DNA of 34,041 nucleotides. Origin: Candidatus Zhuqueibacterota bacterium. GTDB lineage: Bacteria > Zhuqueibacterota > Zhuqueibacteria > Zhuqueibacterales > Geothermadaptataceae. Of this stretch, positions 14,703-25,005 are shown one piece after another (within the stretch, counting starts at the first letter, position 1; every line of letters starts with the position of its first letter). A program made the position numbers and the translations under genes. The stretch is taken from positions 1-34,041 of the forward strand of contig JAUZRQ010000029.1 in assembly GCA_030950365.1 (NCBI GenBank). The letters run 5' to 3'. A model generated the notes under the pieces. That model was given only the letters and a program-made list of their open reading frames with translations, searched no databases and had not been told where the DNA came from.

Positions 14703-15040
14703 ATAAGAATCAATTGGATTTGCTGGTCGCTCTGCAGGACATCGATTTGATGCTGAAAGAGCTAGACGATGTAAAACAACTGGGATTTGAAGTCCGCACG
14801 GAAGGGGCGGAGGCATTGCAAAGAGCCCGGGAAGAGTTAACTCAGAAAATTGGCAAGCCCCTGTTGGGCAAATATGAACGGTTGCGCGCCCGCTATAAGC
14901 GAGCCATCGTACCGGTCAAAGGTGATACCTGCCTGGGGTGCTTTATGCGCCTGCCGACCTATCTCATTACGCATAAAGACAAGCACAACCAGATCATCAC
15001 CTGTGAAGGATGCGGCCGGATTTTATACTGGTTAGAGTAG
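14699..15040 (+). CDS. Short C4-type zinc-ribbon protein (DUF164/zf-RING_7 type)
   Basis: A 113-residue protein. The first two thirds are helical and charged (LLVALQDIDLMLKELDDVKQ through ELTQKIGKPLLGKYERLRARYK). The end carries two CxxC pairs (DTCLGCFMRLPTYLI and ITCEGCGRILYWLE) that should bind one zinc. This end matches the nucleic-acid-binding-type zinc ribbon of the DUF164 family, whose typical members are about 240 residues with a long coiled-coil hairpin. Here the coiled coil is roughly half length, so this is a shortened family member. It is coupled to the PTS IIA gene by a four-base overlap and its end overlaps the convergent GNAT gene by nine bases. Function unknown. Confidence 0.8.
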   Translation: MNKNQLDLLVALQDIDLMLKELDDVKQLGFEVRTEGAEALQRAREELTQKIGKPLLGKYERLRARYKRAIVPVKGDTCLGCFMRLPTYLITHKDKHNQIITCEGCGRILYWLE

Positions 15041-16153
15041 CGGTTTTTCGAAAATGCGGTAGCGCTTGTACACCTCCGCACCCATGACCTGCAATGCGGC
15101 ATTCATCAATTTGTTGGTTTCCAGAATCCAGGAAAACTCGCCCCACCGGTATCCTTTGGCCGTGCCACGATTGAAAGTTTCCAGATACAACAGCGGACCA
15201 ATGCCCCGCTTTTTCTGGTATTTCAGCTTCACCCCCAGAGTGAACACCCGCGCCGCGTCGATTTTGCGGGAATAGTACAAGAGCTTGAGCAGGCCAAACG
15301 GGAACAGTCGGCCGTTGATTTTGATCAACGCTTGATTGTAATCCGGGAGCGCCAGTGAGAATGCTACTGCCTGGCCATCTAATTCCGCAAACAGCACCAG
15401 GTCGGGATCGATCACCGGTTTCAGCTCTTTGGCCAGATGCTCGATCTCAGCATCGGTCAGCGGCACGAAGCCCCAGTTCTTGCTCCACGCATCGTTGTAA
15501 ATCTCCTTGACCACCGCCAGCTCATCCCAGAATTTTTTCATGTTCAGTGGTCGCACGGTCACGCCCTCGCGCTCCTGTGCCAGCCGCGCAATTTTTTTGA
15601 TGCGCTCGTTCATGCCCTGATCCTCGAAGTAGCGGTAGGCCAGGAGGTCCATGACTTTTTGGTAGCCGATCTGCTCAATCAGGAGTTGGTAGTAGGGCGG
15701 ATTGTAGGTCATCAAAATGAACGGTGGCGAATCGAAACCGTCGATGAGCAGGCCGCAGGTGTCGTTGGTGGAGAAATTCATCGGGCCGCGCATGGCCTTG
15801 AGGCCGCGCTCGCGCAGCCAGTCCTCAGCCGCTTTGAACAGCGCCGCCGCCACATCCGCATCCTCGATGCATTCGAAGAACCCGAAGAAGCCGATGTTTT
15901 CGTTGTGAAAAGCATTGTGATTACGGTTGTGAATGGCAACGATGCGCCCCGCTACCTCTCCGTTTTTCATCGCCAGAAAATAGTCTGCCTCGCTGTGCTG
16001 GAAAAAGGGGTTTTTCTGCTTGTTCAGCATGTTTTTCATGTCCATAATCAACGGGGGCACCCAGTTGGGATCATTGCGGTAGATATTCCATGGCAACATA
16101 ATGAACTGCTTCAACTGTTTTTTGCTGGTAACCGGAATCACTTCGATCGACAT
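15032..16153 (-). CDS. GNAT-fold acyltransferase; candidate ceramide synthase (bCerS-like)
   Basis: A 373-residue protein. The N-terminal half (NIYRNDPNWVPPLIMDMKNML, NPFFQHSEADYFLA, GRIVAIHNRNHNAFH) and the C-terminal half (LFAELDGQAVAFSLALPDYNQ, then LGVKLKYQKKRGIGPLLYLETF and WILETNKLMNAALQVMGAEVYKRYRIFEK) form a GNAT-type fold; K-K-R-G-I-G fits the acyl/CoA-binding loop. It is larger than ordinary acetyltransferases (150-200 residues). It lies 3' of a serine palmitoyltransferase on the same strand, about 420 bp away and separated by terminators, so it is not simply co-transcribed. In Caulobacter, as I recall, ceramide synthase is a GNAT-related acyltransferase encoded near spt; by that analogy this protein may N-acylate 3-ketosphinganine. 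That function is inference from fold and context. An unrelated N-acyltransferase is the alternative. Confidence 0.85.
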   Translation of the reverse strand: MSIEVIPVTSKKQLKQFIMLPWNIYRNDPNWVPPLIMDMKNMLNKQKNPFFQHSEADYFLAMKNGEVAGRIVAIHNRNHNAFHNENIGFFGFFECIEDADVAAALFKAAEDWLRERGLKAMRGPMNFSTNDTCGLLIDGFDSPPFILMTYNPPYYQLLIEQIGYQKVMDLLAYRYFEDQGMNERIKKIARLAQEREGVTVRPLNMKKFWDELAVVKEIYNDAWSKNWGFVPLTDAEIEHLAKELKPVIDPDLVLFAELDGQAVAFSLALPDYNQALIKINGRLFPFGLLKLLYYSRKIDAARVFTLGVKLKYQKKRGIGPLLYLETFNRGTAKGYRWGEFSWILETNKLMNAALQVMGAEVYKRYRIFEKPLL

Positions 16154-16317
16154 GGCTTGAACTCCTTCCTCACGCGTCGTTTACGAACTCATGGTCAAGA
16201 TACGGCCGCATTCGCTCAGGTTTTGCCGGTTCGTGACGGAAATCGTGGATTTCATCCGCTCATCAGAAAGCGGGAAAAGCCATCCACTCGCAGGGGCCAC
16301 AGATCGCGCAGTGGCGA
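16154..16317. other. Upstream region of the GNAT gene
   Basis: Noncoding on the evidence available. It should contain the minus-strand promoter of the GNAT-fold gene. AGGAAGG lies about 10 bases before its ATG (near 16163-16172) and serves as the ribosome site. No further structure is seen until the palindrome at 16318. Confidence 0.4.
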
Positions 16318-16364
16318 TTTTTAGACCTCCTTCCCAAGCTAAACTTGGGAAGGAGGTCTAAAAA
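16318..16364. terminator. Perfect 21-bp inverted repeat, terminator-like, enclosing an SD core
   Basis: The left arm 16318-16338 (TTTTTAGACCTCCTTCCCAAG) and right arm 16344-16364 are exact reverse complements around the loop CTAAA. A-tract and T-tract ends fit a bidirectional intrinsic terminator. The right arm contains AAGGAGGT, the full Shine-Dalgarno core, held in the stem. No start codon follows closely. Confidence 0.7.
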
Positions 16365-16516
16365 AGTCTAACTTAGTTGCTATTCGGGCAGCTACCGGTC
16401 AATTTGCGGGGAACCCCGCACCGGATATGAGGCTTTTCCTTGCCAGCGGCCTGCGCAATTCTGCTGTACCTAACAATAAAAATCACCACAGCCGCCGGCG
16501 CAAGCCCAAAAAAACC

Positions 16517-16566
16517 AAAGCCATCCGAAAACGCCTCTGCGTTCGCAAAGGATTCCGGATGGCTTT
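16517..16566 (-). terminator. Terminator of the serine palmitoyltransferase gene
   Basis: AAAGCCATCCG (16517-16527) pairs with CGGATGGCTTT (16556-16566); the loop can form a small inner hairpin (AACGCCTCTGCGTT). On the minus strand the stem is followed by GGTTTTTTT. It lies 11 bases past the stop of the gene ending at 16577. Confidence 0.8.
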
Positions 16567-16576
16567 TGAAAATGTG

Positions 16577-17764
16577 CTATGAGATCAGGCCGAATTCTTT
16601 GCCGAGCTTGTAGAACACCTCGAGCACATGGTCGAGGATGTCATCGGTATGGGTGGCCATGTAGCTGGTGCGAATGAGGCCATGGCCCGGAGGGACGGCC
16701 GGCGCGATGGCAGGATTGGTGAAAATGCCGTTTTCGTACAGCTTGCGCCAGAATTCAAATGTGGCCATCTCGTCGCCAATGAGGATAGGAATGATGGGCG
16801 TACGCGAATTACCGGTATTGAAGCCCATCTCATCGAAGCCTTTCTTCATTTTGTTCACATTGCGCCACAGCTTTTCCAGCAGTTCCGGCTCGCTCTCGAT
16901 CACGTCCAGAGCGGCGATCACGGCGGCCACCGACCCTGGCGGCATGCTGGCGGAAAAGATGAGCGCGCGGGCGTGGTGCTTGATGTAATCGATGACATAG
17001 GCGTCGCCGGCAATGAAGCCGCCAAGCGAAGCGAAAGATTTGCTAAACGTGCCCATGACCAGATCGACATCTTTGGGCGAAAGGCCATAATGTTCGGCCG
17101 TGCCGCGACCGTGTTTGCCCAGCACGCCAATGGAGTGGGCATCATCCACCATGATGCGCGCGTTGTATTTTCTGGCCAGCTCCACAATTTTCGGTAGATC
17201 CACGATGTCGCCTTCCATGCTGAACACGCCATCGGTAACGATCAGTTTGCCGGCGTCATCGTCGTGATTTTGCAGCAGTTTTTCCAGATGATCGAAATCG
17301 TTGTGACGGTATTTCAGCACGCGGGCGAAGGACAGCCGGCAGCCATCCACGATACTGGCGTGATTGCTGCGATCGGCAAAAATGATGTCATCTCGGCCAG
17401 CAATGGTAGAGATAACCCCCAGGTTGGTCTGAAAGCCGGTGGAAAACACCAGTGCAGCTTCAGTTTGCATAAAGCGGGCGAGGCGATTTTCAAGCTCGGT
17501 ATGCAAATCGAGAGTTCCGTTCAAAAACCGGGAACCCGTGCAGCCCGAGCCGTATTTTTCGATGGCTTTTTGAGCACTCTCAATGACATGTGGATGTTGG
17601 GTAAGACCTAAATAATTATTGGAGCCAATCATGATCATCCGCCGACCGTCGATGGTCACCTCGGGTCCGGCTCCACTTTGAATCTCTTTGAAATAGGGAT
17701 ACCATCCTTGCTCACGCGCTTCCTGGGCTCTGGTGAATGCTCTGCACTTGTCGAATAGATCCAA
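16577..17764 (-). CDS. spt: Serine palmitoyltransferase (alpha-oxoamine synthase family)
   Basis: A 395-residue PLP enzyme. The start is TTG 17764 with GGGAGGG seven bases upstream; no earlier ATG exists. Family landmarks: GSNNYLGLTQHP, GSGCTGSRFLNGTLDLHTELE, SNHASIVDG, VTDGVFSMEGDIVDLP, MVDDAHSIGVLGKHGRGT, and the PLP lysine in GTFSKSFASLGG (K242). The opening (CRAFTRAQEAREQGWYPYFKEIQSGAGPEV) and KHHARALIFSASMPPGSVAAVIAALDVI resemble Bacteroidota serine palmitoyltransferases more than glycine C-acetyltransferase (Kbl) or BioF. SPT condenses serine with a long acyl thioester to 3-ketosphinganine, the first step of sphingolipid synthesis. No threonine dehydrogenase is adjacent, which argues against Kbl. 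A divergent NAD-dependent reductase-type gene and a GNAT-fold gene support the lipid role. Confidence 0.85.
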   Translation of the reverse strand: MDLFDKCRAFTRAQEAREQGWYPYFKEIQSGAGPEVTIDGRRMIMIGSNNYLGLTQHPHVIESAQKAIEKYGSGCTGSRFLNGTLDLHTELENRLARFMQTEAALVFSTGFQTNLGVISTIAGRDDIIFADRSNHASIVDGCRLSFARVLKYRHNDFDHLEKLLQNHDDDAGKLIVTDGVFSMEGDIVDLPKIVELARKYNARIMVDDAHSIGVLGKHGRGTAEHYGLSPKDVDLVMGTFSKSFASLGGFIAGDAYVIDYIKHHARALIFSASMPPGSVAAVIAALDVIESEPELLEKLWRNVNKMKKGFDEMGFNTGNSRTPIIPILIGDEMATFEFWRKLYENGIFTNPAIAPAVPPGHGLIRTSYMATHTDDILDHVLEVFYKLGKEFGLIS

Positions 17765-17955
17765 CCCTGATCCCTCCCAATCTATTGTTCATGCATAAAT
17801 TAACGTCAATATAATAAGGGGTGCTGAACAAAGCAAGCATAAAAAATAACAGAAAACTAAAATTCTCTTAGTGAAAACCGGCCGAATTTTTTACATTTTA
17901 ACATTCATCCGACCATGAAACATTGATCATTCAAAACGAAAAAAGCGAGGAAAAG

Positions 17956-18936
17956 TTGCGAGCTCTGGTAACCGGTGCGTCCGGATTTATTGGCGGATTT
18001 CTGGTGCAGCGTCTGCTCGATGACGGCGTCGAAGTTGTTTGCCTGATGCGCAAAACCTCATCCCGGGCTTATCTGCCTGTGGATCGCATTCGCATTCACC
18101 TCGGATCACTGCAGGACGTGGATTCACTCAAGACGGCCGTACAGGGTGTGGATGTCGTGTTCCACCTTGCCGGCGCAACCAAAGCGCTGAGCCGAGAAGA
18201 TTTTTTCCAGATTAATGCCGGCGGCACCCAAAATCTGCTCGAAGCCTGCCGCCAGAGCGGAGTGAAGCTGCCCCGGTTCGTGCTGGTGTCCAGCCTGGCA
18301 GCGGCCGGGCCAAGCGCCGACCGGCAGGGCATCAGCGAGGAAGACGAGCCGCGGCCGGTGTCGCATTACGGGCAGTCCAAGCTCGAAGCCGAACGCATCG
18401 CTGCTGAGTACGGCCGGGATTTGCCGGTCACCATCGTGCGGCCACCGGTGGTATACGGCCCCCGCGACCGCGATGTGTACCAGTATTTCAAACAAGTGAA
18501 TATGGGCTTCGCGCTGTATCTCGGCCGGGAGCCGCGCTATTTCAGCATCATTCATGTGCGCGATCTGGTTGAGGGTATCTGGGCGGCTGGCCGCGCCGCT
18601 CAGGCCGTTGGCCGCACCTATTTTTTGACCAATCCTCAACCCGAATCCTGGCGGGGGCTGGGGCAGATGATCGCCCGCGCCGTGGGCAAGGAGCCCGTGC
18701 CCATCGTGCTGCCGGAATGGACCGCCAGCGTGGTGGCGGTGTTCGGCGAGATGGTGGCGCGCATTACGCGCAAGCCGCCGCTTTTGGGCTTCGATAAAAT
18801 CCGTGAAATGCGTGAAAAATACTGGGTGTGCCGGGGAACCCGAGCCGAAACGGAACTGGGCTTCAGGCCGGCTATCTCCGCCGAGGAGGGCATCGAAGAA
18901 ACCGCGAAATGGTACCGCGACCATGGCTGGCTGTGA
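17956..18936 (+). CDS. NAD-dependent epimerase/dehydratase (extended SDR); candidate ceramide reductase (CerR-like)
   Basis: About 326 residues of the extended short-chain dehydrogenase family. The Rossmann motif is LVTGASGFIGGFL directly at the N-terminus; the catalytic serine lies in LVSSLAAAG and YxxxK in HYGQSKLEAE. RPPVVYGPRDRDVYQYFK is the usual substrate-side segment. There is no ATG start: TTG 17956, with GAGG six to nine bases upstream, puts the start just before the Rossmann strand; TTG 17923 is an alternative lacking an SD. It diverges from the serine palmitoyltransferase across 190 bp. In Caulobacter, as I recall, an NAD-epimerase-type protein reduces the 3-keto group of oxidised ceramide. 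By position and fold this protein may do the same; a sugar-nucleotide epimerase is the alternative. Confidence 0.88.
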   Translation: MRALVTGASGFIGGFLVQRLLDDGVEVVCLMRKTSSRAYLPVDRIRIHLGSLQDVDSLKTAVQGVDVVFHLAGATKALSREDFFQINAGGTQNLLEACRQSGVKLPRFVLVSSLAAAGPSADRQGISEEDEPRPVSHYGQSKLEAERIAAEYGRDLPVTIVRPPVVYGPRDRDVYQYFKQVNMGFALYLGREPRYFSIIHVRDLVEGIWAAGRAAQAVGRTYFLTNPQPESWRGLGQMIARAVGKEPVPIVLPEWTASVVAVFGEMVARITRKPPLLGFDKIREMREKYWVCRGTRAETELGFRPAISAEEGIEETAKWYRDHGWL

Positions 18937-18944
18937 AGGGGAAA

Positions 18945-19823
18945 TCACATGTTGCGCAGCCGGTATTGTAAAATGATGTTGATCAATTTGTCCAGAGATG
19001 AAGCAGGCTGCGCGGCGCCGTTGGTGAACGGCTCCGCTTCCGTACGCTGCAGATAGCGCCGGGCAAGCAGGTAGTGCAGCAGCTCGTTGGCATCCACCTG
19101 TGGCCGGTATTCATACACCCGGTTGCGCCGGTTTTTAGAGGACATCTCGATCTCAATGGCGTAAAATGGCAGTTGAATGGTGAACGGCAATTTCGGAGAT
19201 ACCTGCTTTTCGAGCAGGTATCCCTTCCGGGCCATGTCGCGCAGTAGCCGCCAGGTCATCTCCGCGGTCAGGTGAATGGACGAATCCAGCGCCACGTACA
19301 CTTCCGGACCGGTGGCTTTGCCTTTTTCCCAGATAGTCGCCAATACTTGCAATTCCAACGGGCTGGGAATGGGCAGGTCCTTGATTTTCGGTCTCGTGGG
19401 ACGATCTTTCTTTTTCTTTGCCAGCGAGGAAACCGCCTGCGCCACCCGGTTGAAATCCAGAACGGCATCGCGGCCGGCGCGGCTCTCCAGTGCTTCCTGA
19501 ACCGGATCGGTGGGGACCACAGGCGGACCGGTGGTGGAGTCCGAAAATTGTGGGATTTGCAACCGCAGTCGGGACTTGCGCGTGAACGATAGCCCAATCG
19601 AGGATGTGTCGCGATAGAGGTCGGTCAAAATTTGCTCGATGAGCTGCTGCCGGCGCAGGAAATACATCAAGCGCAGAGAGTCGATCTTCACGGGGCTGGA
19701 CGTGCTCAGCGAGTCCTTACCGTCTTGCTGCGGATACGGCAAGGCCACAGCGGCGGATAGGCCGCTTATAGAAAGCAAAAACTCGATGATGAAAATGCTG
19801 AGCCACGACCTTTTGTGCGGCAT
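18945..19823 (-). CDS. Exported protein with a BlaI/MecI-like winged-helix domain
   Basis: About 292 residues. ATG 19823 has GGGAG eight bases upstream; a GTG three codons earlier is too close to that SD. The N-terminus (MPHKRSWLSIFIIEFLLSISGLSAAVALPYP) is a signal peptide or single anchor. A low-complexity Ser/Thr/Pro region and a Lys-rich linker (SLAKKKKDRPTRPKIKDLP, near 140-158) follow. Residues about 160-250 (SPLELQVLATIWEKGKATGPEVYVAL...MTWRLLRDMARKGYLLEKQ...YEYRPQV) match the order of the penicillinase-repressor winged helix: ‘E-x-x-V-x-x-x-x-W’, a T-V/T-W helix, ‘K-G-x-L’, then a Y-x-Y-x-P wing. If the N-terminus is a true export signal, the DNA-binding-type fold would sit outside the cytoplasm. 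It converges with the epimerase gene (8-bp gap). No BlaR-type sensor is nearby. Confidence 0.8.
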   Translation of the reverse strand: MPHKRSWLSIFIIEFLLSISGLSAAVALPYPQQDGKDSLSTSSPVKIDSLRLMYFLRRQQLIEQILTDLYRDTSSIGLSFTRKSRLRLQIPQFSDSTTGPPVVPTDPVQEALESRAGRDAVLDFNRVAQAVSSLAKKKKDRPTRPKIKDLPIPSPLELQVLATIWEKGKATGPEVYVALDSSIHLTAEMTWRLLRDMARKGYLLEKQVSPKLPFTIQLPFYAIEIEMSSKNRRNRVYEYRPQVDANELLHYLLARRYLQRTEAEPFTNGAAQPASSLDKLINIILQYRLRNM

Positions 19824-20090
19824 GCGATCCACTCCCTTTCAAATATGTGGCTAATCCAGTAACCTCAAGTTGGCAGGTTTTGTTCCCCGTATCATAGCAA
19901 TACACACGAACCCGTACGAAATCGTCCTCCCTGGTCCGCTACCACCAGCCAGTGCAAGCCGTCACAACCAGTTGCTGAACTTGTTAAATCAGGCCGCAAC
20001 AGTGTGGATAAAGCACTATTTTGCTTGATTTTTACCACCATAATATTAATTTATGTAAAAATTTCAAAAGAAAACTCTGCGGGAGGCACA

Positions 20091-20345
20091 ATGCGATATC
20101 GCAGCGAAATCGAAGAGGAAAATCGCAAGATTCGCAGGCTTCGGTTTTTAGCTGATTTGATCGCATCGCTGTTGGCCCGTCCTGAGACATCCATTCTTGA
20201 GGCGCATGGCCTGATTCAATACATCCGAAAAGAAGCTTTGCAAATGTTCCCAGGGAAGGAAGCCGCGTTCGATATGATTTATCATCGACGCTTTCGGAGG
20301 ATTATTGAAGAGCGTTTGCAAAGACACTGGCCCATGTGGAATTAG
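20091..20345 (+). CDS. Small basic helical protein of unknown function
   Basis: 84 residues, starting at ATG 20091 behind GGGAGG (20081-20086). A longer reading from 20004 would add a hydrophobic 29-residue leader but has no SD, so I reject it. The sequence opens RYRSEIEEENRKIRRLRFLADLIASLLARPETSILEAHGLIQYIRKEALQMFPGKEAAFDMIYHRRFRRIIEERL. It is mostly alpha-helical, rich in Arg and Glu, with a conserved-looking core L-F-P-G-K-E-x-x-F-D-x-I-Y. I remember similar short proteins from other uncultured bacteria but know no function. The next gene starts 13 bases later on the same strand. Confidence 0.7.
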   Translation: MRYRSEIEEENRKIRRLRFLADLIASLLARPETSILEAHGLIQYIRKEALQMFPGKEAAFDMIYHRRFRRIIEERLQRHWPMWN

Positions 20346-20358
20346 CCGATGGACCGTT

Positions 20359-21234
20359 ATGGAAAACGCGCTGAACTATTCGAAATTGTCTAAAATGCCT
20401 TTCCCATGGTATGGTTATGCGGCGGCGGTCTGGCTCGTGGCCGCCGAAATCCTGATGTTTGCGCGCATCGAGCCTTTTCTTACCTGGTTTACTCCAATAC
20501 AGTGGACCGGCTTGATCTTTCTATTGGATGCGATTCTGGTCAAGCTTGGCGAGGAGAGCTTCATTTTTCGCCGCACGCGCGAATTTTTGTACATGCTGTT
20601 CGTGTCCAATGTCGTCTGGTTCGGATTCGAAGGCTACAATCTGCATTTGCAGAACTGGAAATATGTCGGCCTGCCCGAGTCGTACTGGGTGCGCGCGGTC
20701 GGCTACGTATGGTCATTTGCCACCATATTCCCGGGGGTGCTGCTGACCAGCCGCATCATTGACCGGCTCGGGGTATTTGATTTTGTTCGCTTCCGGCCGG
20801 TGGCGGTGTCCCGGGGCTGGCGTGCCGGTTTCATGATTTTCGGCTTTTTAAGCGTGACCATCCCGCTCCTGGTGCCGCAGGAGATCGCGCGCTATCTATT
20901 TGCTTTTGTTTGGGTTGGTTTTGTGTTTCTGATCGATCCGATCAATGACCGGCTGGGTATGCCATCACTGCTGCGCGAGCTGGAAGAAGGTACGCTGCGA
21001 AAGCTGTTTTCGCTGTTTCTGTCCGGGATTATCTGCGGATTTTTGTGGGAATTTTGGAACTATTGGGCCGGAACAAAGTGGATTTATACAGTGCCGTTTT
21101 TAACCGAGCCCCGAATTTTCGAAATGCCACTGTTCGGTTTTCTGGGATTTCTACCATTTGCGGCAGAGTGCTATGTGTTCTGGCAGCTTTCGCTGTGGCT
21201 GCGGCGTCGATTGTCATCCGAAAATAGGAGATGA
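20359..21234 (+). CDS. Polytopic inner-membrane protein of unknown function
   Basis: About 291 residues with seven to eight hydrophobic segments (roughly residues 20-40, 45-65, 80-100, 125-150, 175-190, 200-218, 240-262, 268-285). Tryptophan and phenylalanine are frequent; charged loops include LLVKLGEES, FRRTREFLY and RELEEGTLRKLF. A notable segment is GIICGFLWEFWNYWAGTKWIYTVPFL. No transporter, enzyme or secretion motif was recognised. The ORF is open further upstream to 20305, but that would overlap the 84-residue gene. ATG 20359 lacks a strong SD, and ATG 20395 is a second option. It probably shares a transcript with the small gene just upstream. Function unknown. Confidence 0.7.
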   Translation: MENALNYSKLSKMPFPWYGYAAAVWLVAAEILMFARIEPFLTWFTPIQWTGLIFLLDAILVKLGEESFIFRRTREFLYMLFVSNVVWFGFEGYNLHLQNWKYVGLPESYWVRAVGYVWSFATIFPGVLLTSRIIDRLGVFDFVRFRPVAVSRGWRAGFMIFGFLSVTIPLLVPQEIARYLFAFVWVGFVFLIDPINDRLGMPSLLRELEEGTLRKLFSLFLSGIICGFLWEFWNYWAGTKWIYTVPFLTEPRIFEMPLFGFLGFLPFAAECYVFWQLSLWLRRRLSSENRR

Positions 21235-23055: not shown

Positions 23056-23943
23056 ATGACAAACGTAATGACCACGCATAAAAAGATAAATTGGTTTCAC
23101 CGGGCGCTTTTCTTTTCTCTACTGCTGCACATCCTGTTTTTGGGTGCCGCCGGCTGGCTGGTCGAAACGCCGCTGTTTTCTTCCCAACCCAAAAAAGAAG
23201 AACCCCCGCAGGAACCGCTGGTATTTGAATTCGATCAACCGGAACGTCCTCCGGAGGTGATCGAAACTCCGGAATCGGCGCGCCGTGATGCGCCCAATCC
23301 CGATGCGCGTTTTGCATCGGACAAAAACGCGCAGGCCCAGAATGAAACGGCCAGAGAGGACCTGCCCCTCGGCGAAGCATACAACGAGGGCGAGGTGGAC
23401 TTCCCGCAAATGGCAGAAATGCCGGCACAGCCGCAGCCCCAAACCCGTCAGGACGATCAGCAGGCAGAAAAGCAAAACAAGCCTGTCATGAGCACGGGGA
23501 TGGAAGCGGCCAGCCAGTTCTCGCGCGAATGGCTGACCGCATCGCCGCAACAGCCGTTTCGCGGTGAGCTCCTGCGCGCCAAAACCGATCAGCGGCGCAC
23601 GCGCGCCGAAGATGTGGGCGCGTTTTCGCTCAACACCTATGCCTGGGATTTCGCGCCCTACATGCTGCGGCTAAAGCGCAAAATCGAAAAAAACATTTTT
23701 CCGCCACCGGCATTTACGTATATGGGAATTATTAGTGGACAGGCGGTACTGCGATTTCGTATATTGCCGGATGGCACCATGAGCCATCTCGAGGTCATTT
23801 CGTACAACGGACACAAGAGTTTGCTCAACACCAGCCTGAAAGCCGTGGAAGTCTCGGCGCCCTTTGAACCGCTGCCCAGCGACTTCCCGGAGAAATATCT
23901 TGAAGTGACCGGGCGGTTCGAATATCTGACGACGAATCGGTGA
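23056..23943 (+). CDS. tonB: TonB-family energy transducer
   Basis: 295 residues. A single N-terminal membrane span (residues 17-37, SLLLHILFLGAAGWLV, with the S-x-x-x-H pattern used to contact ExbB/ExbD) is followed by a Pro/Glu/Gln-rich periplasmic linker (45-150). The C-terminal TonB domain (about 205-290) has YMLRLKRKIEKNIFPPPAF, GQAVLRFRILPDGTMSHLEVIS and NTSLKAVEVSAPFEPLPSDFPE, which are the usual landmarks. TonB carries energy from the proton gradient to outer-membrane receptors. GAAGG precedes the ATG. exbB and exbD follow 11 bp downstream. No TonB-dependent receptor is in the window, so the cargo cannot be told. Confidence 0.93.
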   Translation: MTNVMTTHKKINWFHRALFFSLLLHILFLGAAGWLVETPLFSSQPKKEEPPQEPLVFEFDQPERPPEVIETPESARRDAPNPDARFASDKNAQAQNETAREDLPLGEAYNEGEVDFPQMAEMPAQPQPQTRQDDQQAEKQNKPVMSTGMEAASQFSREWLTASPQQPFRGELLRAKTDQRRTRAEDVGAFSLNTYAWDFAPYMLRLKRKIEKNIFPPPAFTYMGIISGQAVLRFRILPDGTMSHLEVISYNGHKSLLNTSLKAVEVSAPFEPLPSDFPEKYLEVTGRFEYLTTNR

Positions 23944-23954
23944 GGAAGTAGCTT

Positions 23955-24608
23955 ATGGAGGCGTTTGCGACGGTCTGGAATTTTCTGGTCAAGGGCGGAG
24001 TCATCATGATTCCGCTGGCGCTGTGTTCTCTGGTGGGACTGGCCGTGCTCATCGAGAAGCTGTATTCGCTGCGTCGCAACAAAGTGCTCATTCCTGAAAT
24101 CATCAACGTGCTGGAGAATATCCGCTCGGAAGAGGACATTCCTCTGGCCGTGAATATTTGCGAACAGCATCAGGGGCCGTTCGCCAACATTGTGATGACG
24201 GTGCTGCGTTACCGCAACCAGCCCAAAGCCGAACTGAAGGAACTGGTGGAAGAAACCGGCCGGCAGGAGGTGCGCACGCTGGAGCGTGGCCTGGTGGCGC
24301 TGGAAACCGTGGCCGGCGTGGCGCCGCTTCTGGGTTTGCTCGGCACGGTGATCGGCATTTTGAAAATATTTAATGTGATTTCAGAGGTGGGCATGGGCCA
24401 GGCTTCGGCCCTGTCCGGCGGTCTCAGCGAGGCGCTAATCACCACCATCATCGGTCTGAGCATCGGCATTCCGTCGCTGGTGTTTTACAATTATTTTGTG
24501 GACAAGGCCGAGCAGCTCATTCTCGAAATTGAAAAATACAGCTCGGCCTTAATCATGAAATTGAAGAGCTTCGAATCGCAGGAGCTGGATCTCATCGATG
24601 CGTCTTAG
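23955..24608 (+). CDS. exbB: MotA/TolQ/ExbB proton channel protein
   Basis: 217 residues with three predicted membrane helices (about residues 15-38, 115-138, 158-180). Family motifs are GGVIMIPLALCSLVGLAVLIEKLYSL, the LERGLVALETVAGVAPLLGLLGTVIGIL block and the SGGLSEALITTIIGLSIGIPSLVFYNYF block with its conserved Thr/Gly surface. It forms a pentameric proton channel around ExbD and energises TonB. The stop overlaps the exbD start by 11 bases. The neighbouring TonB gene favours ExbB over TolQ; no tolA, tolB or pal is visible. Confidence 0.93.
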   Translation: MEAFATVWNFLVKGGVIMIPLALCSLVGLAVLIEKLYSLRRNKVLIPEIINVLENIRSEEDIPLAVNICEQHQGPFANIVMTVLRYRNQPKAELKELVEETGRQEVRTLERGLVALETVAGVAPLLGLLGTVIGILKIFNVISEVGMGQASALSGGLSEALITTIIGLSIGIPSLVFYNYFVDKAEQLILEIEKYSSALIMKLKSFESQELDLIDAS

Positions 24609-25005
24609 TGAGAAAAAACGAAAAAAGCCTATCATTAACATCACCTCCCTCATCGATGTTTTATTTCTATTGCTAATTTTTATTATGGTTTCGTCCACAT
24701 TTCTGGAAGAACCGGGAATGAAACTGGACCTGCCGAAGGCGCAGAGTGCGGAGATCGGTGAGAAAAAAGAAGTCACCATCTACATCACGGATACAGGGGA
24801 AATTTATCTCAACAGCAATCCCATATCTCTGGATGACTTGAAATCGGAGCTGGAAAAGCAGCTTCCCGAGCTGAAAGAGAACGGCCTGACCCTGAAAGCC
24901 GATGCCGAGGCCACGCATGGACTGGTGGTGGAGGTCATGGATATCGCGCGACAGATAGGGGTAAAAAAGCTGATCGTCGCCACACAGCCGCCCAAACAGC
25001 CGTAA
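24598..25005 (+). CDS. exbD: ExbD/TolR biopolymer transport protein
   Basis: 135 residues. One membrane span near the N-terminus (residues 16-36) holds the essential Asp in NITSLIDVLFLLLIFIMVSSTF, the proton-binding residue of the ExbD/TolR family. A small periplasmic domain follows (MKLDLPKAQSAEIGEKKEVTIYITDTGEIYLN...LTLKADAEATHGLVVEVMDIARQIGVKKLIVAT), matching the family length. Its start overlaps the end of exbB, so translation is coupled. Confidence 0.94.
   Translation: MRLSEKKRKKPIINITSLIDVLFLLLIFIMVSSTFLEEPGMKLDLPKAQSAEIGEKKEVTIYITDTGEIYLNSNPISLDDLKSELEKQLPELKENGLTLKADAEATHGLVVEVMDIARQIGVKKLIVATQPPKQP

Follow-up and report, generated by a model that had tools for sequence, protein, structure and literature searches.

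A BlaI/MecI-type winged helix behind an export signal in a phylum-wide family with a probable role in the cell envelope

The gene, its start and its export signal

The window, a 34,041-nucleotide stretch of contig JAUZRQ010000029.1 from a Candidatus Zhuqueibacterota bacterium, carries on its reverse strand a gene for a protein with a predicted export signal, a long linker and a winged helix of the type found in the BlaI and MecI repressors. The gene was assigned from its open reading frame, its sequence, dN/dS and homologues throughout the phylum; its features are listed here in the order in which they are read.

19832..19839, (-): Shine-Dalgarno sequence AAAGGGAG, read from the sequence
18945..19823, (-): gene for the exported winged-helix protein, 292 aa plus stop
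19740..19823, (-): export signal, residues 1-28, a predicted cleavable-type signal peptide (sequence; hydropathy and charge over 72 homologues)
19386..19739, (-): linker, residues 29-146, partly of low confidence in AlphaFold, with helices at 49-74, 107-115 and 124-139
19038..19385, (-): BlaI/MecI-type winged-helix domain, residues 147-262 (Pfam PF03965, PDB profile search, Foldseek, VIA-align)
19224..19265, (-): helix in the recognition position, residues 187-200, with the BlaI DNA-contact signature lost and acidic across the family
19107..19205, (-): extended wing, residues 207-239, with the hallmark SP...E-x-S-x-K-N-R-R-N-R-x-Y-x-Y (alignments, AlphaFold)
18951..18998, (-): C-terminal helix, residues 276-291 (AlphaFold model)

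The frame (18948-19823) opens with an ATG at 19823 and is followed by a stop codon at 18945-18947. Because the Shine-Dalgarno sequence lies 8 nt 5' of this ATG, where it overlaps an alternative GTG start, translation most likely begins immediately before the export signal. The N-terminus of the 292-aa protein, MPHKRSWLSIFIIEFLLSISGLSAAVA, begins with a basic n-region, continues into a hydrophobic core and has small residues where cleavage would be plausible, and AlphaFold models a helix at residues 6-23 in this region. Cleavage was judged by rule of thumb from the sequence, both for this protein and for its family. Comparison with a homologue from the same genus indicated purifying selection (dN 0.20 and dS 1.86 overall, dN/dS about 0.1), and the low dN/dS extends to the linker. 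Identity to this homologue is highest in the winged helix (81%) and lowest in the signal (34%), which is the usual pattern for signal peptides.

The winged-helix fold, its recognition helix and its wing

Penicillinase_R (PF03965) is the only family that matches the protein over its cut-off (residues 154-208, 26.5 bits against a curated cut-off of 22.6); NCBIfam gave just a sub-threshold match to CopY. When the PDB was searched with a profile of 48 homologues, the top matches were CopR, BlaI and MecI. In the AlphaFold model, residues 147-262 are of high confidence, with pLDDT of roughly 90 or higher across most of the domain, and much of the linker is low. Foldseek ranked MecI first with E-values near 0.01, which are weak perhaps because the linker dilutes the model, and VIA-align gave Z 11.5 for MecI (87 residues, 1.9 A) and 10.7 for BlaI. 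A homologue with a membrane anchor (see below), modelled separately, showed the same domain, preceded by an N-terminal helix of 31 residues and a linker that is mostly disordered, again with MecI first (Z 10.9). By sequence match and predicted structure, then, the domain is a winged helix of the BlaI/MecI type. The preliminary description had proposed an export signal or anchor, a linker and a winged helix with the helix order of BlaI and MecI; the reading frame, hydropathy, Pfam and AlphaFold bear out this architecture, and the placing of MecI and BlaI at the head of the structure comparison agrees with the helix order.

The family shares with the BlaI/MecI/CopY repressors, its best structural and sequence match, W165, Y239 and the general H1-H3 pattern. 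Unlike them, its members have an export signal, a long N-terminal linker and a wing insert of 20-25 residues, and they have lost the TT-V-K/Q-T recognition signature. To compare the recognition helix column by column, we aligned 72 exported proteins with 30 ordinary BlaI proteins of the same phylum. The ordinary proteins have Thr at positions 188, 189 and 192 (24/30, 28/30 and 29/30, respectively) and Lys, Gln or Arg at 191 (27/30). In the exported family, by contrast, position 188 is Glu in 46 of the 72 proteins, position 189 is Asp in 37 and position 191 is Asn in 29, and the Thr at 192 gives way to mixed residues. The charge of this helix, which the preliminary description had proposed as a check, was found to be acidic: over its first half (residues 185-194) the mean net charge is -0.97 in the exported proteins versus +1.00 in ordinary BlaI. 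The corresponding values are -0.5 versus +2.4 for the recognition helix and -3.0 versus -0.1 for the H1-H3 segment (residues 153-200). At the level of sequence, this is strong evidence that the canonical DNA-reading mode has been lost in the exported family.

Within the wing, residues 207-231 form the insert, which has no counterpart in the short wing of BlaI. Its motif is ISPxN...IExSxKNRRN, the second half of which has the extended form IExSxKNRRNRVYxY, and AlphaFold models the wing with strands at 213-217 and 222-226 and a helix at 229-233. All 72 proteins have P210, E226 and N234, and S209, N231 and Y239 are nearly invariant. Although P153 and Y176, which lie outside the wing, are also invariant, the majority of the new invariant residues are in the wing insert.

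Distribution, export types and neighbouring genes

A profile search found a family member in 65 of 69 sampled genomes of the phylum (KSB1/Calditrichota-type), after one of the 66 genomes scored was discounted because its match was an ordinary 130-aa BlaI. With a single sequence as query and a threshold of E 1, homologues were recovered from 78 of 99 genomes, some of the weak matches among these being ordinary BlaI or chance. When 84,980 species were scanned with a profile made from a short domain alignment, 23 loci were recovered, from groups named KSB1, Calditrichota, Caldithrix, Deferribacteres, Bacteroidetes and Bacteroidota, several being labelled just "bacterium". Samples of three other phyla (34, 61 and 10 genomes) yielded zero family matches at 1e-9, which limits the presence of the family elsewhere without excluding it, and the viral contigs searched also yielded zero. 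The gene occurs in two divergent copies in some genomes (L055/L072, L033/L083, L051/L088 and L052/L074). Most genomes of the phylum also encode ordinary short BlaI proteins, with open frames of 96-194 aa and one of 254, unlike the 292-aa protein of the window with its export signal. The combination of a BlaI winged helix with export is absent as a named family from Pfam and NCBIfam, and the open-access literature searched yielded no report of a BlaI-type winged helix that is exported or periplasmic. The components (BlaI fold, TonB-type anchor and signal peptide) are known; their combination is undescribed in these sources, as the preliminary description had supposed. That description did not include the TonB-like form of the anchor, the conserved insert in the wing or the near-universal presence in the phylum.

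A hydrophobic N-terminal segment is present in all 72 near-complete homologues (13-residue hydropathy median 2.55, lowest 1.62), with a mean net charge of +1.5 before it and -0.5 after. The start codons of the homologues were picked by a script in the vicinity of this segment and are therefore approximate, but in every homologue the segment and the domain share one reading frame. The N-termini are of two types. Cleavable-type signal peptides are predicted in 43/72, including the window member and all of its own family, and many of them end in A-x-A or FAQ/AQ-type sites. The other 29 have TonB/TolA-type anchors, with Ser-x3-His (26) or Ala-x3-His (3) within the hydrophobic helix. The script itself had flagged 25 N-termini: of these, L078 was removed as a signal peptide that matches by chance, and L044 and L060, missed where the script had set their starts inside the helix, were added. 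By chance, Ser/Thr-x3-His occurs in about 5% of shuffled N-termini. A profile of the anchored N-termini matched that of the phylum's own TonB N-termini with 93% probability (E 3.6e-7), whereas in the same comparison signal peptides reached 0.7% and ExbD membrane helices 4%. Anchors of the TonB/TolA type are N-in/C-out in known cases. The SHLS motif contacts ExbB and TolQ through its Ser and His in E. coli (PMC12215075).

Export types are strongly clustered on a domain tree of 122 columns, with at least 5 changes between them; the tree is poorly resolved and the direction of change is not readable from it. Of the 72 homologues, 29 resemble TonB and TolA in their N-terminal helix and long linker, which was disordered in the one modelled. 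They differ at the other end, where a Pfam scan of 48 members found no TonB_C or TolA C-terminal domain and the winged helix stands in its place. The window member differs further, as its signal is of the cleavable type and its N-terminus has no Ser-x3-His motif.

The gene has no neighbour on its own strand and converges with the gene for an NAD-dependent epimerase, and no gene for an M56 sensor (BlaR1/MecR1) was noticed next to it. Across loci, too, it usually stands alone with neighbours that are mostly convergent or divergent, and the neighbourhood therefore gives no firm partner. (A cluster first counted as a separate same-strand neighbour, c49, was set aside since it looks like an antisense epimerase produced by a simple ORF script.) At 15032-18936 the window contains in a row genes for a GNAT-like protein (just below its Pfam cut-off), an enzyme resembling serine palmitoyltransferase (574.8 bits with NF047600, whose cut-off is 640) and the epimerase, which also resembles HpnA below cut-off. 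From its sequence this row resembles a bacterial locus for the synthesis of ceramide (a sphingolipid), and CerR and bCerS may be represented among these ceramide-type genes. Genes for Spt, CerR and bCerS frequently occur in clusters (PMC11334938). Two conserved genes upstream, at 20004-20345 and 20362-21234 (+), have no Pfam match; the second encodes a membrane protein that has relatives in the corresponding position in L062, L068 and L070. TonB, ExbB and ExbD genes follow in a row at 23056-25005 (+), and this TonB has a Ser-x3-His helix (SLLLH).

Across the family, the Spt/epimerase/GNAT set lies within 5 genes in 20 of the 37 loci with usable flanks, across classes. In one group (L037, L044, L045, L048, L060, L067 and L069) two LptF/LptG-like permease genes adjoin the gene in place of the ceramide-type genes, and a long SprA-like gene then follows in most; these names are our reading of the sequences. 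CutA, TonB, ExbB and ExbD are found on the other side of the gene in many loci, with a TonB, ExbB or ExbD gene within the fetched flank in 15 of 38. We regard the ceramide-type, Lpt-like and TonB/ExbB/ExbD neighbours as leads to an envelope role rather than proof of one.

A more specific version of the envelope-adaptor reading given below would make the protein a factor in the trafficking or sensing of sphingolipids or outer-membrane lipids that works together with the products of the ceramide-type genes nearby. The recurrence of the ceramide-type set across classes and the adjoining LptF/LptG-like genes speak for it. We nevertheless give it a slim chance: the gene is convergent with the epimerase, 17 of the 37 loci are without the set, and the adjacency may be inherited, as a wider block that includes PTS EIIA and others is also syntenic.

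Possible roles of the exported domain

The preliminary description had left two arrangements side by side, a tethered protein with its domain facing inward and a fold reused outside the cytoplasm. The second is clearly favoured. The cleavable-type signals and the TonB/TolA anchors, together with an acidic recognition helix that lacks the DNA-contact residues and the gain of a conserved wing insert, make reuse most likely, and the same signals, the N-in orientation of the anchors and the lost contacts disfavour the inward-facing form. We strongly infer from the sequences that the domain is located outside the cytoplasm, where its job is probably a non-DNA one in the cell envelope.

The explanation that we consider probable is that the proteins form an undescribed, phylum-wide family in which a winged helix of the BlaI/MecI type is exported and serves as a periplasmic adaptor. 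A BlaI-type winged helix would have been captured behind an export signal, would have stopped reading DNA, and its wing would have gained a new, conserved surface. The extended wing, with its fully or almost invariant SP, E, S, N, N and Y residues and basic KNRRNR run, may bind a protein partner or an anionic component of the envelope, and the protein may act in envelope maintenance or in the biogenesis of outer-membrane lipids or proteins. Once its signal is cleaved, the protein of the window's lineage would be soluble in the periplasm; in other lineages it would be tethered by the TonB/TolA-type helix and could engage a motor of the ExbB/ExbD type. Since the window's lineage has no anchor, any function shared by the family would reside in the domain itself, and motor coupling, if real, would be confined to the anchored lineages. 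Counting against this explanation, the basic KNRRNR of the wing could still touch nucleic acid.

A bolder version is doubtful, although not far-fetched: the anchored forms would be TonB/TolA-type transducers driven by ExbB/ExbD with a BlaI-derived winged helix as output domain, the family becoming a free periplasmic adaptor where the anchor turned into a cleaved signal and constituting a hallmark of the phylum.

The basic wing motif, the winged-helix fold itself and the coexistence of anchored and soluble forms would also suit a protein that binds DNA in the periplasm, such as a DNA-uptake ratchet of the ComEA kind; ComEA likewise is an exported small domain of nucleic-acid type and exists in tethered or soluble forms. 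ComEC is present in 64 of 69 genomes of the phylum. We think this improbable, given the acidic recognition helix and H1-H3 segment. In addition, ComEA is a helix-hairpin-helix protein, unlike the winged helix modelled here, and HHH_3 proteins, most genomes having short ComEA-sized ones, occur separately in all 69 genomes, which weakens the idea of a ComEA substitute.

Somewhat less credible is a membrane-tethered transcription factor, whose uncleaved anchor would hold the domain in the cytoplasm to repress as BlaI does. The fold is of a repressor type and the basic run in the wing is kept, and regulators of the ToxR/CadC type also combine a winged helix with a membrane segment in a single protein. 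In those regulators, however, the winged helix is N-terminal and cytoplasmic, whereas in the exported family it is C-terminal and behind the export signal. The positive charge precedes the hydrophobic helix rather than following it, many signals are of the cleavable type and the 29 anchors of a type with N-in/C-out orientation, the recognition helix is acidic and without the BlaI contact residues, and most of the genomes already have an ordinary short BlaI.

Finally, a wrong start or fusion, in which an ordinary BlaI frame was extended upstream, fits with Penicillinase_R as the sole family over cut-off but has a negligible chance, being already contradicted by the Shine-Dalgarno sequence at the signal's own ATG, the hydrophobic N-terminus that the check on homologues found kept in 72/72, and the low dN/dS of the linker, while the phylum's real BlaI proteins are short and different.

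Returning to the exported-adaptor explanation, the family would be a clear case of a winged helix relocated from the cytoplasm and refitted, with the loss of DNA reading visible phylum-wide; annotation pipelines take winged helices for transcription factors. The anchored members suggest that the TonB/TolA membrane helix can bear output domains beyond the known ones. The phylum, of the Fibrobacterota-Chlorobiota-Bacteroidota group, is poorly studied, and because the family is near-universal within it, the protein probably matters for the envelope of these bacteria.
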